Positions 9,184-29,100 of a DNA stretch of 64,000 bases are shown here, piece by piece. How positions within the stretch are numbered: position 1 is the first letter of the stretch; each line of letters opens with the position of its first letter. The translations under genes and the position numbers were made by a program. The notes below the pieces were generated by a model that saw nothing but the letters and a program-made list of their open reading frames with translations, was not told where the DNA came from and searched no databases. The DNA is from Paracyclopina nana (lineage: Eukaryota; Arthropoda; Copepoda; Cyclopoida; Cyclopettidae): contig JAGUCH010000004.1 in NCBI GenBank assembly GCA_019096065.1, forward strand, positions 5,828,001-5,892,000. Reading direction: 5' to 3'.

Positions 9184-11193
9184 AATTAAAATATATCACT
9201 GATTATCACCACCAGCCTCTAATCACAAAACCTATCATGACTTGGTTCTCCAGCAGCTGATGGCATGCACAAAAGAGGGTCCATAAAAATTGGGGGAAAG
9301 TCTTGAGGATGTGAGCCCATGTGGTGGATTGGAGTACTATACTTGTGTAGCTTCAGCTGCTGTTTTCTAGTCATGCGCTTTTGCTGGGCCCTGCAAGTTC
9401 TATGTTCGAAGGCTCTCTGACGAGGCAAAGCTCGGCCACTGTATTCAGCCAAGAGCGCCGCCAAGAGCCTTTGCTTTGCAGGGTCGTGTGAGGCTTTAGC
9501 AAAAGCAAATGTCGAGAGAACGATCACATTTTGCTCGAAATACCAATATAATGTTCATCACTCAATTTGCTCCCTTTTTTTCGCATGCCAAAGTTTTTCA
9601 TTGCATGATTTAATCAAAGTTTTAATGCCCATCAATTTAGAGGTAACTTAAATGGCCAATACATGTATAGTATAAGGTGGAGGAATACATTATAGAGGAG
9701 AAAGTTTCATTGATTGAGAACTTGAGCGATACATCAATTTAGATGGGTTTCATGCCATGTTCATCAGGAGAAAGCTTTTTGGTAATGCTTCCTTCAAAAC
9801 CATTGCTTGTTCAATTGCAGAGATAATAGAACGCTTTATGTCAGCATGACGTCAAAGCTAGACCTGTTTAATTTTCTTAAATGGCCTTAGCCCCACTGCA
9901 GTGGAGTTGGAGTGATAGCACCAAAATAAACCTGCTATCACAGCAGATAAGCAGTAGCTAGGTGAAAGCTATTGCCTTCAGTCAATTAAAAAAACACAAT
10001 CGCATGTGAAGCTGATGAGTTCAAGAATTGCTACTGAGCAAATCAATACAAATTATCAGCCTTAGGCACACAAAGGCCACCATCTCGTGTTTTCTTTTCA
10101 GTCTCACAAGGCTTCTAATTTCCTGTTCGAAGCACTGAAAATGTAGGCCATGGTCGTAGCGCAAAAATCACGCGATACTGCAGCAGTCATTTTCTAGAGA
10201 ACCCTGTACGGTCGAAGTTGTGGACTCGTCGCGTCAGCCAAGAACGAATCTATATGGCATAAAGGCCGCTTCCCCCAAATAGTTCTTCTTAGCCTTGTCC
10301 CACTCTCCCACTGGGCAGCTCTGGCATCGATCTTCATTTTGGGGAGGCCAAAAATAAGTTCAGGTCCACAAATTCCACCGACAATTGCCACACACGTGTA
10401 CATTTGTTCAGTTGGAAATTGAGGAGATTACGTGTAAGGCAGCTCTGTTTTCTGTCTGCCTTATCTGCATAAAAACACAGCATCGAATGGACATTTACAC
10501 TGTGTTGAGGCTACACCCAAAGTAGCCTATCATAGAACACTAAATAAAGTGAAGAACTAACAATAGAATTCTTTTGAGGAGCAAAGTTGCCATAGTCTGC
10601 AATATTGATGTAGTTTTAATATGCAAAAGCCTTCTTTTGACATCTTCTTGATATCATCATGCCAAAACAAGGGACTGAGAGAAACAACAAAATTTTGTGC
10701 ATTCATTCTGCTAGTGGCAAAGCATGAAGGAGGTTACACAAACAGAGTAACATAAGGACACTGAAGCCCTACATGTGTGCTCAGCTGACTCAGGCCTTGC
10801 TAATGGCATCATTTATGCTGTTGGTACTGACAGCTGAAGTACAATCTGCAACTGCTTACTAATCTTTTAGTAAGCTACTTTAGTGAAACGTTATGAAGCT
10901 TTGGTCACATCATTACACGAGGCAATAAGCAAGAAACAATGCTCCAAGGATGCAATTTGTAATGCTACACTGCACATAAATCTTCCAAAATGAGGTTGAT
11001 GGCTGGATGATGAAGCTTCTTTTTTCAAGTCCGTATTAACATAAATAATCCCCAAGTGCCAAAAGGCTTTACTCAGCATATGGTTGCATATCACCAAGAG
11101 CAATTGCAAGTGTTCACTTTATTTACCTTAAAGCAATTTCTGTTGCCTGTCAAAGGCTGAATGGGAGGGCTGAAAAATGGCCCCAAATAGTGA
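9184..11193. other. spacer, no confident gene
   Basis: Upstream of the disordered-protein gene and downstream of the Ig-domain gene on the minus strand. It contains a GTG-initiated protein-like frame (9219-9527) and an ATG frame of 69 codons (10194-10403), neither of which I can place. I searched it for transmembrane or kinase exons that would extend the Ig-domain gene and saw none. Confidence 0.35.
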
Positions 11194-12550
11194 TTATCCC
11201 ATGACAGCAATCAGACATCCAATCCAGACATGGATGCGGCTAATGAGTGCAGTGAAACCTTTTGATGATGTGGCCTCAAAATCGTCATTACTTTGTGAAA
11301 TGTTTCTATAGGTTGAAGAACTTCCTCTCTTCTTAAATGTCTCAGTAGTGAGTTTATGATTATCTAGAACTTTCAGTTGAATCTTTCTCTTTTCTTCATA
11401 AACGTGGTAAGAGCTGAATAGGCAAAGATAAAGACCAGAGTGAAGGGTCTTGTTAGCTCTGTGGCAAATTGAAACTTGAGCTTGAATGGAATTGGGTTGA
11501 ATAGTAATCTCACCTCATGAAAATAAATCCCAGCCTTGGATGGAAGTGGTAATTGTAATCAAAGTTCACGTCTCCCCGTTTAATTAGAGTAACTTCAAAA
11601 TTGGGATGTGAAGGTCGACAAGGAATTAAGGCTCTTTGGCCTTCTTCTACCTCAACAACCAATCTTGTCAAATTTGGGAAATTTGTGGGAAAGCCAACTG
11701 GGCTTAAGGTGTCTTCAACATAAAGATGGATGTTTTCTGACAGCGACTCTGATGAGTTCGATTCAAAACACGAATAGGAGCCAACATGGCTACAAAATTG
11801 AGGCTAAATTATGGATGAGCACGAAGGCCAAGAATACATACTCGCTTGAAACATTGCTGAGCACCAGAGTGGAGAAGTAATTTATGTTGGCAAAGCTTAT
11901 ATTGGCACTCCACAATTCGAGCAGATCTCTAACTTCGTCCAACTCGTAATGAACCTTTGAAAAGTTTACAGGCATTATTAATTAAAAAAGTGGGGAAATC
12001 CTCCCTTACATGAAGGCTTTCACTAATCCTGAAATGAGGAGCTGTCACCGTCCACTCATGATGGTTTTGGGTTAAGCATGTAATATTTACAGAGCTGCCA
12101 GGAAGAGCTGAAAAAACAGCAAGGTTTTCATCATCTGCTGGATTGAAGAGGCCCTCTGATGGATCTGAAAGAAAAGCTGAATCAATTATGCAGCATTATG
12201 CAACATTAATCCAACTTGCTTCCTTCTATGGTGCCAAATGAGGATAGCGTTGATTTCTGCAAAACTTCACATCTTTTAGTGCAGTGGAGTGCAACAAACA
12301 TTTTTCTTTTCTCTTTGAACATTTCTTCAAAGTAATCCGGGTCCTCATATGCAATCCAACTGTATTCACTTAAAAAAAATAGCTAAATATCAGGGATTGT
12401 AAGCGAACCTTACCTTGAATTGACGCTGAATGAATATTCGTAGAACTCAGTTTCGTTTTGTGCTCCATCAATTTTCAAAGCTGATGCACTTTTTTGACGG
12501 AAAAATGCCAAGAGGAATAAAGTTAAGGCCACATCGCAGCTCGAAATCAT
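11194..12550 (-). CDS. secreted two-Ig PDGF/VEGF-receptor-like protein without kinase
   Basis: Six exons (12550-12414, 12368-12220, 12164-12010, 11954-11842, 11789-11514, 11458-11194) join in frame to 364 residues. A signal peptide (MISSCDVALTLFLLAFF) is followed by a first Ig-like region (SSVNITC ... HVGSYSC) and a second one that reads like Ig domain 2 of PDGF/VEGF receptors: VEDTLSPVGFPTN, EEGQRALIPCRPSHPNFEVT, HPRLGF, then SGLYLC. In PDGFR and VEGFR these two domains help bind ligand. After a Ser/Thr-rich stalk the frame stops with a short hydrophobic tail (IHVWIGCLIAVMG), perhaps a GPI signal. No membrane-kinase part is present. Intron 2 uses a GC-AG donor (AA/GCAAGT). An in-frame ATG at 12580 is an alternative start. 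Exon structure is well supported; family by recognition; decoy role is inference. Confidence 0.72.
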
Positions 12551-14142
12551 GACTTTTAACTGATACTTTCTTACGCTCATAGGGTAAATCCCTCGTATTT
12601 GTTTACAAAATGTAGCAAAAATAATCTTTCCTCCCTGAATTTTACGGTACACAAACAAAACACATGATGTTGAGAAATCTTTCTTAATGCCATAGAAAAC
12701 GATAGTTTTAATCTTTAAATGTTGTTATTAAAAAAGTTATTGCCAGATTAGCTGAGCAACTTTCGCGCATGTTAATGACAGGACCGCTATTTAGCTCATT
12801 TATGGCATAATGAGGTTTTGTAAATACCAACTAGTTTGTTCACATATGAGTTAGGCCGCAATACTAATTAAAAGGAACGTAGGAGTACAAACACATTATG
12901 GGCCTTTTTGAGCGTGAAATGAGCCAAAGTAGTGATTTATTAGATAAAAAGAGGAGCTTGCTATCAAAGCATAATGTGATTATTAGGCTTGAGAACACCA
13001 CTTAAGGAGATTCAATTTCTGTAATAGTCCATTAAGAAATGAAAAAGAGCGGAAAAGCGAGCCCTAAATCACATTATGTTCACTCAACATTTTAAAAGCT
13101 TGCTCGAGAATAACAAGTAGAAATTCGAGCATACACAAGCTGTAACCAAAATGTACCCAGCCTTGAGGATATAGAAAGCAATCATAAAAACAAAACATAT
13201 GATGTCACGTGGTACATTTGAGGCTAAGAGCCCATCAAAAAACAATGAAGTTTCAACAAATCCAAAAAAAAAACCTTCATCAACCATCAAGTCACGTACT
13301 ATTTGACAGCTATTGCATCTAGGATGGGAGTTTCCACTGTTAATGCTATTATGTGGCCTTCGGCATTTCATGATGCATCTATGACGACAGCCTTTCTTTT
13401 CATGAGAGCCTTTTACTCGAACAAATATACCTGACCTTGATCATATGATCGATCCACGTGTAATCTATAGCCTGCTTGTCATTGCATCCCCATAATGTAG
13501 TACTGACACAAGAAATTATTCCTAGCACGAAGATGAAGCTATTTACCAACAAAAACGCAGTACACCTTACAGGCATGTAAGAGCCAATATGAACAAAAAG
13601 CCCCTCAACTTTATCAAAATTACATTGAAGTTCCGCAAATGAGTTGTCATCAGAGTGGCATTCGACCTTTTCATCAATTACACAAAAAGAAGTAGCCTCG
13701 TGGGCTATTATGAATAGAGCGAACTATTTTGCCCATATCTTATCCATAAGGAAATAGATATGGATCAAAGCCACTCCAAATATGATGATAGAATGAATGC
13801 TTTCAAAGCCTATCAAGGTATTTTGAAAACATACATGAGCCACATGCATGCTGGTAAAAGAAGAAAAAGGAAAGCTGCAGCTATATAGCAGCAGCCATGG
13901 AAAGGTAGTAAAAATGCCTTCTAAAACGCCCTCGTGCGATAACTGCAGTGAACGTCCAAACTTTCGCACGCAAATCTTACGTCTAATATTTATGAGGTTA
14001 TGTTTAGTTAACAGCTTGTAGCCTACCTATCCAGTATATTCTAATTTTTCAAAAAGAAATCTAATTTGTTCAATATAAAGTAGTACATCAAACCTTAGAT
14101 TTATATGTTTAATCTCAAGCGATTAAGGAAATGTTTTCTTAC
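12551..14142. other. spacer, possible unassigned exons
   Basis: Lies between the Ig-domain gene and the last exon found for the basic-protein gene. A minus-strand stretch at about 13726-13400 stays open for about 110 codons without an ATG and contains a hydrophobic run (FLLVNSFIFVLGIISCV). I cannot link it to a neighbour. The 3' end of the basic-protein gene may also fall here. Confidence 0.3.
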
Positions 14143-26100: not shown

Positions 26101-29100
26101 TGAGATAAATGAAACATTGCAAACAAATTACCCATTTTCTCTTGTGCATGCGACTATGGAAATCACTTTACCGCAGTGCAATTATTTCAACTTCAATTTT
26201 ATGGCACTTGCCTTCCGATACCATAACATTTTGTGCGAAATTTATTTTATTGCACATTTTTGTTGGCCTTTTAAATTTCGCCAAATGAAATTGGGAAAAT
26301 GGAATCAGTTTACTAAATTGTGACTTCCTCTCATTCATACATATACAGACACTTCTAGTGCAGGATGACCTCGATTTTTCAAGAGCAAATAAACACACTT
26401 GCCTTCATTTTGCAGTTGTCTACAACTTTTTTGGTGGCCAAAGTGACCACGAGCTGGAGATTCTCGACAAGCATTGCCTAAAGCTTAAAATTGGAGATCC
26501 TGTGTGCATACTCGAGGAGTGTGAAGGTGAGTGGGAAAACGCATGAGCTTTTGGACTGGTGAAAAAATGATTTCTTTTATCTTTTTACAGGATGGTTTCG
26601 CGGTTACAGTCTAAGAGATCCTTCCAAGAAGACTGGAATCTTCCCAACCAACCATATCGCAATTAAGCCATATTCCATTTACAACGGGTAAGTTGAAAAA
26701 GTCTCCTATGATTCGGGTTAAAGTTCGCGTTTGAAGCCGTGAATGCCATTTTTATTATAGTCTCCTGTTTTAAAAACGTATCATTGGCATTTGGAAATCT
26801 CCACTGTCAATTTAGCATTCTTGTATGGCTCCCTGTTGAAAAATAACGTGGGCAGCCACATTCCGGAATCCGAGGCTAGGACCAACTTGGAAGTTCCGGG
26901 CTCTTCAATTGACCGAACTTTTTCCTCAAATACCATCACCTTGCCGTCTTGGAACTCGATCTTCATTGCGTAGCTAAATTGCTTTGCTTGGGATGGCGAC
27001 AACGTAGTGTAAATTATCTTCTTTGTGACCAAGTTCATGGCAAATAATCCGCTGGATTTGGCAAGGAAAAACTTCTGGCCATCCTTAAGGAATTCAGAGT
27101 CGGAGCCTCCCAAGAGGAACTTGACCTCGCATACCTTATTTGTTTCTCCAACGTTCAAGGAGAACGGGTTATGCCTTGCTGACTCAAGGTGGTTCGAGTA
27201 TTCGTTGGCGACTATGGATCTTGGGCAATAGAAGCATCCAATCTTCCTACGGTCACATTCTGACTCGTGGATTTTCAACTCCTCCGGCATTTTTCGGACT
27301 TGGCAGCCTCGGTGCTTGCAATTTTTCATGAAAATTTTCTCCATGATTTTTTCGAGCTTCGCATTTCGTCTATCAGTCCAGTTGGCGAAGCATTCTGGAC
27401 ACGAGGCTTGAGTCACTCTGCATGAATTGCAGACTGAGTGCCCATTTTCGCACATAAAAACGGGAACGTCCAATTGCCTGTTGCAAATTTGGCAGTCAAA
27501 AATGGCTTTCAACTCCTTCAACGTAGACTCGGCCATCTTGATCTGTAGAAGATACTAGCTAGACTAATAGATCACGTAGCAATGCAATTGTGCTGATAGG
27601 TGAAATACTATAAGAATTGCTGACTCAAATTCTTAGAAAACTCAAAGCAGACTATTAAGTTTATTTCTTTGCAAATCAACAACAAAACTATTTGATTTTT
27701 CTTCGAGCTGCAGTGAGAACTTTCCTGACGTTGATCTTGATTTTGGATTTTTCTAAGATGCCACCCAAATCGTAGAATTCATGAGGAATCCATAACCCTC
27801 CAGTGGAAAATCCGAGCAAATTTTCCTTTTTGTCATCAACTGAAAGAACTCTACCAAAATACTTTTGAGGTAGTGAATTCGTGAGTAGAACTTCCTTGCA
27901 AAATTCAATGTTGATGGAGTAATGGAAATGAGCTGATCTCTCCTTCGGCATGACGGCATACATGAACATTTTCTTCTTGAGCCTATCCACGTAGGAATTG
28001 GGGCAAAAGATGAATGAATTCATTTCTTCATCAACCAGAATCGTGGAAGCGTATCCACTCACTATCAGGTCTTGGTTCCATCGTATAGGAATCTTGAACA
28101 GCAAATGACTTTGCATACTGTGGGATATCAATGTACCGAATGGAACTTGAAGTCGGCATGGCACAATGAGGCAATTGACAGGTCTCCATTGGCACTCCTT
28201 CTCATGACGACTGACTTGGCTACTCTTTAGCTTCACATTGCAGCCATCGCTTTGATACTTGCACGGCTTATGCTCAATGGCCTCCAAGACACTCTCCAAT
28301 TTGATATTTCTTCGCTTGGTCAAGCGGCCTCTGCATTCCGGACATTTAGTAACTTTTGTTAAGCAGGTGTTACATATTGAGTGCCCATTTTCGCACATAA
28401 AGGTTGGAGGCTGCAGAGAGTGAAAGCAAATAGGGCATTCCAACGCTTGCTTCAAATTCATCCAATCAATGTTGTCCATCATTTTCTTCTGAGCCGAGAG
28501 CCCGAGACAGATGTTGTAGCTGAAAATCCGAATATTTCCGAAATTGAGCTATTACAGCTGATGACATTGCTGCTGATTTATGACTCATTTTTTCCTGAGA
28601 GGTTTCTGCAAAATTTCTGTTCAAGTTCCGTAGTTACGTAACTTCATTGTTTTTTACTTTACAGAGGTGATGTTGAAAACGAAGACGCTGTCAGCCTCGA
28701 GGCTGCAGAGGTCATCCGAGAGTGGACAGAGCTTTGGCATGAGCTCTACCTTCTAAGGGACCATGAAAAGTTCAACCAGCTTAAGAAGCTCATGGAGCAA
28801 CTTTTGGACCTGAGAAGGCAACTGATCTCCGGACATTTGACAGGCCAGCAGAGAGCCGACCTGAAAATGAAAATTGTTGATAAAATCCACTTGGGCACCA
28901 GATTGCTCGATCTGGATATCGTGCCTCGCGAGCTTGACGGTCAGGCTGTCAATCCAAAGCTTTCATCTCCTGTTCACCTTTTCAATCGGGTAAGTGCATC
29001 TTAAAAATAATGTGTTCCTTTGATGGATTGCAATGCTTTTCAGAATGTGGATACAGCCCAGAAATTGCTGCATCCAGGAGAACGACCTTCCATGGCTGGT

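Follow-up and report, generated by a model that had tools for sequence, protein, structure and literature searches.

A kinase-less gene with two PDGFR/VEGFR-type immunoglobulin domains in the copepod Paracyclopina nana

Does the genome of Paracyclopina nana contain a gene that encodes the outer Ig domains of a PDGF/VEGF-type receptor separately from any kinase, and if so, what might its product do? The question is raised by a locus on the minus strand (12550-11194) of the window, by which we mean the whole 64,000-nt stretch of DNA analysed. The original prediction had six exons splicing in frame at this locus into 364 residues, comprising a signal peptide, two Ig regions, a Ser/Thr-rich stalk and a stop.

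Structure of the two-Ig gene

Reading the minus strand from 12620 to 10900 in three frames and then joining the exons gave exactly this product. The six exons, of 137, 149, 155, 113, 276 and 265 nt, join in frame into 364 residues and are separated by introns of 45, 55, 55, 52 and 55 nt, four of which are of the GT-AG type and one, intron 2, of the GC-AG type (donor GCAAGT). Exon 1 (12414-12550) opens with a start codon at 12550-12548, encodes a signal peptide of approximately residues 1-24 (ending in KSASA, followed by LK) and is spliced in frame at GTAAGG; an alternative in-frame start codon lies at 12580, ten residues further upstream. The signal peptide was judged by eye and from hydropathy, hydrophobic 12-mers near the N-terminus having KD values up to 2.27, and its cleavage site was read from the sequence. 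Exon 2 (12220-12368), also in frame and with the GC-AG donor at its 3' end, encodes an N-terminal extension ahead of the first Ig domain with the cysteine pair CTKRC, and might alternatively use an acceptor nine bases further in. The first half of Ig domain 1, with the B-strand Cys125 and a Trp, is encoded by exon 3 (12010-12164) and strands E-F by exon 4 (11842-11954), the end of which aligns to CSF1R and VEGFR1. Exon 5 (11514-11789) completes Ig domain 1 (GSYSC) and holds most of Ig domain 2, including the PDGFR-type wording, ALIPCRPSHPNFEVT and HPRLGF, to which the original prediction had drawn attention. Exon 6 (11194-11458) encodes the end of Ig domain 2 (LYLC), the Ser/Thr-rich stalk, a hydrophobic C-terminal tail and the stop codon TAA, and a poly(A) signal, AATAAA, is found 70 nt past the stop (11118-11123, minus strand). 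Eight cysteines are present in the protein: residue 5 in the signal peptide, 75 and 79 in the extension, the pairs 125/192 and 242/289 in the Ig domains, and 358 in the tail.

Exon 5 lies inside the phmmer matches described below, and the joins between exons 4 and 5 and between exons 5 and 6 are backed by homology, since both fall within residues 175-290, which align to CSF1R. Exon 3 is backed by its splice sites and by profile alignment (hhalign against D1-D2 of the three receptor-like genes of the genome, 98.8% probability). For exons 1 and 2 the support consists of the splice sites and the signal peptide, and a search with the protein found no match to them elsewhere in the genome. Exon 2 is the least certain exon, and the predicted gene model is at its weakest in the N-terminal extension and at the GC-AG splice. 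Codon usage was dropped as proof of the exons, as an initial result in which the right frame won in all six was an artefact of the stop-codon penalty; with stop codons left out, the right frame ranked top in three of the six.

Absence of a kinase, and the other Pvr genes of the genome

The two-Ig gene has no split tyrosine kinase, and its product lacks a membrane helix with a cytoplasmic part, the hydrophobic end being followed by one to no residues. That no kinase or membrane exon would lie downstream had been predicted, and the wider searches bear this out. Downstream of the gene, Pfam matched none of five small ORFs at E 0.1 or better, nor, at 0.001, the next large minus-strand ORF (9195-7402) lying past them, and pieces of receptor kinases compared with the whole window reached E 0.69 at best. 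A tyrosine-kinase family search of the genome gave at least 152 matches (best 135 of 412 candidates scored), and among the matches listed there was no tyrosine kinase in C4 from 5,339,301 to 6,098,414, a region that brackets the window. These results bear on the reading of the locus as a truncated pseudogene, or as a piece of a larger gene that continues in distant downstream exons, which we consider exceedingly improbable. The gene is known from DNA alone and has a GC donor in intron 2, either of which could be taken as a sign of such a fragment, but all exons are free of internal stops and the splice sites are of consensus type despite high divergence from the receptors. The position of AATAAA and the lack of a Pfam match in the tested downstream ORFs likewise speak for a complete gene.

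Elsewhere in the window, two adjoining minus-strand ORFs (26781-28548) were seen to carry Sina-type RING domains, the first of them without a Sina zinc-finger match at 0.001, and a further ORF carries a DM4/DM12 domain, which suggests an arthropod.

A search for a full-length Pvr outside the window, as the original prediction had proposed, led to two receptor kinases arranged in tandem at C5:3771649-3781621 (L018, L019), here called PvrA and PvrB. Each combines Ig domains with a tyrosine kinase that is split by a long insert, and each has a transmembrane segment, which was computed for PvrA and judged by eye for PvrB. A third Pvr-like gene, at C3:1994922-2000120 (L021, L022; the C3 gene), encodes several Ig domains with the D1-D2 pair of the family, and the models for the fifth Ig domain of VEGFR and the fourth Ig domain of PDGFR match it above their cut-offs. 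A strong transmembrane helix is followed by a tail of 192 residues that ends in a stop, and no kinase match was found within the 20 kb searched. The C3 gene and the two-Ig gene thus have in common a Pvr-type D1-D2 and no kinase found, and differ in the greater number of Ig domains, the strong helix and the long tail of the former. From the C5, C3 and window loci, the genome holds two kinase receptors, a kinase-less membrane receptor and a kinase-less two-Ig protein. On the ligand side, a PDGF-domain search of the genome gave seven matches, three of them above the curated cut-off, which denote places rather than gene models.

Family identity of the Ig domains

In Pfam the two-Ig protein matched the Ig domain PF00047 above its cut-off (1.6e-6), and other Ig matches were weaker. 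On the second Ig domain, the VEGFR-1-like Ig model PF21339 scored 20.7 bits (E 3.5e-4) without reaching its cut-off of 27, and this is in line with the three receptor-like genes of the genome, whose scores on the same model (21.0, 18.1 and 22.6) are likewise below the cut-off. The model of the N-terminal Ig domain of VEGFR (D1), PF22854, was significant for PvrA and the C3 gene and not for the two-Ig protein (E 0.077). Among solved structures, phmmer placed CSF1R (2.4e-9) and VEGFR1 (8.9e-9) first, followed by contactin-2 (5.3e-5), level with PDGFRa (about 5e-5), and then PDGFR beta (5.2e-4) and titin (8.1e-4); Dscam was also matched, at a weaker E-value than CSF1R and VEGFR1. The region matching CSF1R, VEGFR1 and PDGFRa (2.4e-9 to 5.3e-5) is residues 172-290, from the end of Ig domain 1 through Ig domain 2, and the CSF1R match spans two exon junctions. 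As contactin-2 and titin match as well, part of this signal is generic to Ig domains. When the four D1-D2 sequences found in the genome were combined into a profile, VEGFR1, VEGFR2, PDGFRa and CSF1R came out on top (E 1.3e-37 to 1e-22) among 784 chains matching at 0.01; because three receptor-like genes are included in it, this profile informs on the set more than on the two-Ig protein.

With the two-Ig protein as query against the 92-Mb genome, nine matches were obtained at E 10 or better, five of them its own exons. The non-self places better than E 0.05 were C5:3777040 (5.7e-4), C5:3772429 (0.0099) and C3:1995168 (0.011), which belong to the two C5 kinase genes and the C3 gene only; taken singly, these paralogues match weakly. 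The fourth non-self match, C4:3212708 (E 0.32), was rejected, as it sits in what by eye is a Dscam-like gene with Ig and FN3 domains. In the reverse direction, D1-D2 of PvrA reached the two-Ig locus at 5.1e-4 and D1-D2 of the C3 gene reached it at 0.0071, both ahead of unrelated places. PF21339 run over the whole genome gave three places, all under the cut-off: PvrA, the two-Ig gene and PvrB. The C3 gene, whose second Ig domain is split by an intron, was missed. When the D2 pieces of the receptors were compared with the window by tblastn, exon 5 was found at 8.6e-6 with PvrA and at 2.0e-4 with the C3 gene, and the Ig piece of PvrB reached E 0.57 at best.

As a separate observation on Ig domains in this genome, C8:5000859-5009461 contains 18 Ig matches in less than 9 kb, a dozen of them about 375 bp apart, which may be an array of exons like that of Dscam or, equally well, a single giant protein with an Ig domain in each exon; for that reason the cluster was discarded as a sign of a cladoceran.

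A model (A2) was also built from the three receptor-like genes alone, leaving the two-Ig gene out, and was run against 1128 ORFs from 53 records together with the spliced two-Ig protein. The spliced protein scored 64.9 bits and the exon-5 ORF 45.9, compared with 40.4 bits for the best ORF outside the family (L043, which by eye is a short Dpr-type protein with two Ig domains) and 22.0 for the runner-up. The fair comparison is that of single ORFs, in which exon 5 exceeds L043 by 45.9 to 40.4 in total, the latter collected over two domains, and by 45.6 to 25.3 in best domain. The control set is a hard one and not a random one, as its ORFs come from loci fetched for Ig, kinase or related domains. 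The score of the Dpr-like ORF, and the weaker matches to contactin, titin and Dscam, could suggest a generic two-Ig surface protein in which the likeness to VEGFR arose by chance or convergence. This reading is already disfavoured and very unlikely in our estimation, given that the C5 and C3 receptors are the only places in the genome, apart from the gene itself, that match better than E 0.05, and that PvrA and the C3 gene, used as queries in the opposite direction, reach the locus before anything unrelated. The presence of a PDGFR/VEGFR-type D1-D2 in the protein is well supported by its best structural matches, by the profile alignment and by the A2 score.

The two-Ig protein is 25% identical to PvrA, 26% to PvrB and 21% to the C3 gene. 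That the four Ig cysteines, the reading frame and the splice sites are intact in spite of such distances argues for a function kept over a long time, and the same divergence leaves room for that function to have changed. Intron positions within D1-D2, compared by eye, do not coincide between the two-Ig gene and the three receptor-like genes, and a recent origin is thereby neither supported nor excluded.

Anchoring and possible function

The stalk covers residues 309-350, of which one-third are Ser or Thr, and the highest 19-residue hydropathy of the protein (1.81, residues 345-363) is found at the extreme C-terminus. A candidate GPI-attachment signal was delineated here, at 11197-11256 on the minus strand (residues 345-364, FTALISRIHVWIGCLIAVMG). 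The tail proved sufficiently hydrophobic over its last 19 or so residues for the GPI signal envisaged in the original prediction, and the protein conforms to a simple GPI rule of our own making, distinct from a trained predictor, for small omega-site residues, a spacer and a hydrophobic C-terminal end; so do 10 of 341 ORF ends in the window, the 341 including the gene's own last exon (ORF 11194-11514). The protein may well be GPI-anchored. Free secretion as a decoy without a membrane anchor, in the manner of the soluble splice form of VEGFR1, is an unlikely alternative: the signal peptide and the lack of a transmembrane helix with a cytoplasmic tail would fit it, but the most hydrophobic stretch is at the C-terminal end, which is the layout of a GPI signal and makes an anchor likelier than free secretion. 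A GPI protein could still be shed.

We read the locus as an old and diverged gene for a Pvr-family ectodomain whose binding to PVF or Pvr tunes signalling, a reading for which we see about even chances. On this view, a signal peptide and an N-terminal extension precede two Ig domains, D1 and D2, of Pvr type, and these are followed by a short stalk and probably a GPI anchor. At the cell surface or after release, the protein would most likely bind PVF through Ig domain 2, or pair with Pvr. Ligand would be sequestered or presented in this way, and signalling by the two full Pvr kinases would be tuned. Being without a kinase, the protein would compete for ligand or concentrate it for the Pvr kinases, and inhibition cannot be told from assistance by the sequence. 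Of the kinase-less PDGFR/VEGFR-like regulator originally envisaged, the type of D1-D2, the lack of a kinase and the GPI-like tail are borne out, and the decoy role, together with expression, anchoring and ligand binding, is what we infer from them.

Alternatively, a Pvr descendant may have been recruited elsewhere, to cell adhesion or immune recognition, and have lost the binding of PVF, which we regard as the less probable course, if one to be taken seriously. Adhesion proteins with Ig domains often carry tails of the GPI type, the two-Ig protein is just 21-26% identical to the receptor-like genes, a third Ig domain is absent and the N-terminal extension has no relatives in the genome. However, the best-matched part of the protein is the D2 core (PCRPSHPN...), the ligand-binding domain in VEGFR, and a drifting adhesion protein need not have kept it.

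Retention of ligand binding must itself be viewed with caution, since the second and third Ig domains of VEGFRs carry high-affinity ligand binding (PMC5671940, PMC7765180) and are needed for it according to PMC5671940, and the two-Ig protein ends after the second. Table 2 of PMC7765180 nevertheless lists crystallised complexes of VEGFR1 domain 2 alone with VEGF-A, PlGF and VEGF-B, so that a fragment bearing D2 can hold ligand, and yeast two-hybrid assays in shrimp showed an interaction of Ig domains 1-4 of LvVEGFR2 with two VEGFs out of three (PMC5671940). By analogy with these two cases, a D1-D2 protein can plausibly hold a PVF dimer, perhaps weakly.

The two-Ig protein has the decoy layout of sFlt1 and Sdr, a kinase-less receptor ectodomain with a signal peptide. 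It shares the D1-D2 Ig pair, by sequence, with the arthropod Pvr/PVR kinases and is without their further Ig domains, helix with cytoplasmic tail and split kinase. The vertebrate PDGFRL (PRLTS) is likewise a PDGFR-like protein of two Ig domains, with no kinase and of similar length. The GPI-like tail is a feature of the two-Ig protein, and the two are likened by description only, with no common descent implied. Drosophila Sdr is of the insulin-receptor family and is not known to have Ig domains; its function has been tested, whereas that of the two-Ig protein is proposed here. According to PMC12398695, Sdr is encoded by a separate gene for a receptor-like ectodomain without kinase or transmembrane segment and interacts with the ligands of the receptor kinase; it offers a tested precedent in an arthropod. 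In vertebrates, VEGF is limited by soluble receptor forms, among them the decoy sFlt1, a kinase-less ligand-binding Ig region (PMC7765180). The receptor gene itself yields sFlt1 by splicing, in contrast to the two-Ig protein, which comes from a separate gene, is shorter and has a likely GPI tail.

Tentatively, the PVF system may be layered over separate genes, with two tandem Pvr kinases for signalling, a transmembrane Pvr that has no kinase, and a two-Ig, GPI-anchored Pvr serving to present or trap ligand. Such a system would provide a gene-encoded invertebrate counterpart, independently evolved, of the soluble VEGFR decoys of vertebrates. If dedicated kinase-less Pvr genes were common in animals of this kind, the PVF signals that serve blood cells, immunity and growth would be under an additional layer of control. 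In the parts of the 2024 survey of crustacean receptor kinases considered here (PMC11024359), a kinase is present in the PVRs that are described, and sequences without RTK domain organization were removed according to the methods, by which kinase-less Pvr genes could have been filtered out. The words soluble and truncated do not occur in PMC11024359, nor soluble and decoy in PMC10328876, and the extract of PMC10848406 names a spider VEGF-receptor-like gene and nothing more. Among the matches listed, consisting of titles and the starts of abstracts with subscription papers mostly outside, there was no kinase-less or soluble Pvr gene from an arthropod, which is weak evidence of novelty.

A minor observation concerns kinases of another kind, the guanidino kinases, whose matches among solved structures gave no pointer to a particular animal group. 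For a guanidino-kinase piece at C3:8268781-8269529 (L050), a double-domain arginine kinase, a taurocyamine kinase and creatine kinases outrank all single-domain arginine kinases among solved structures.
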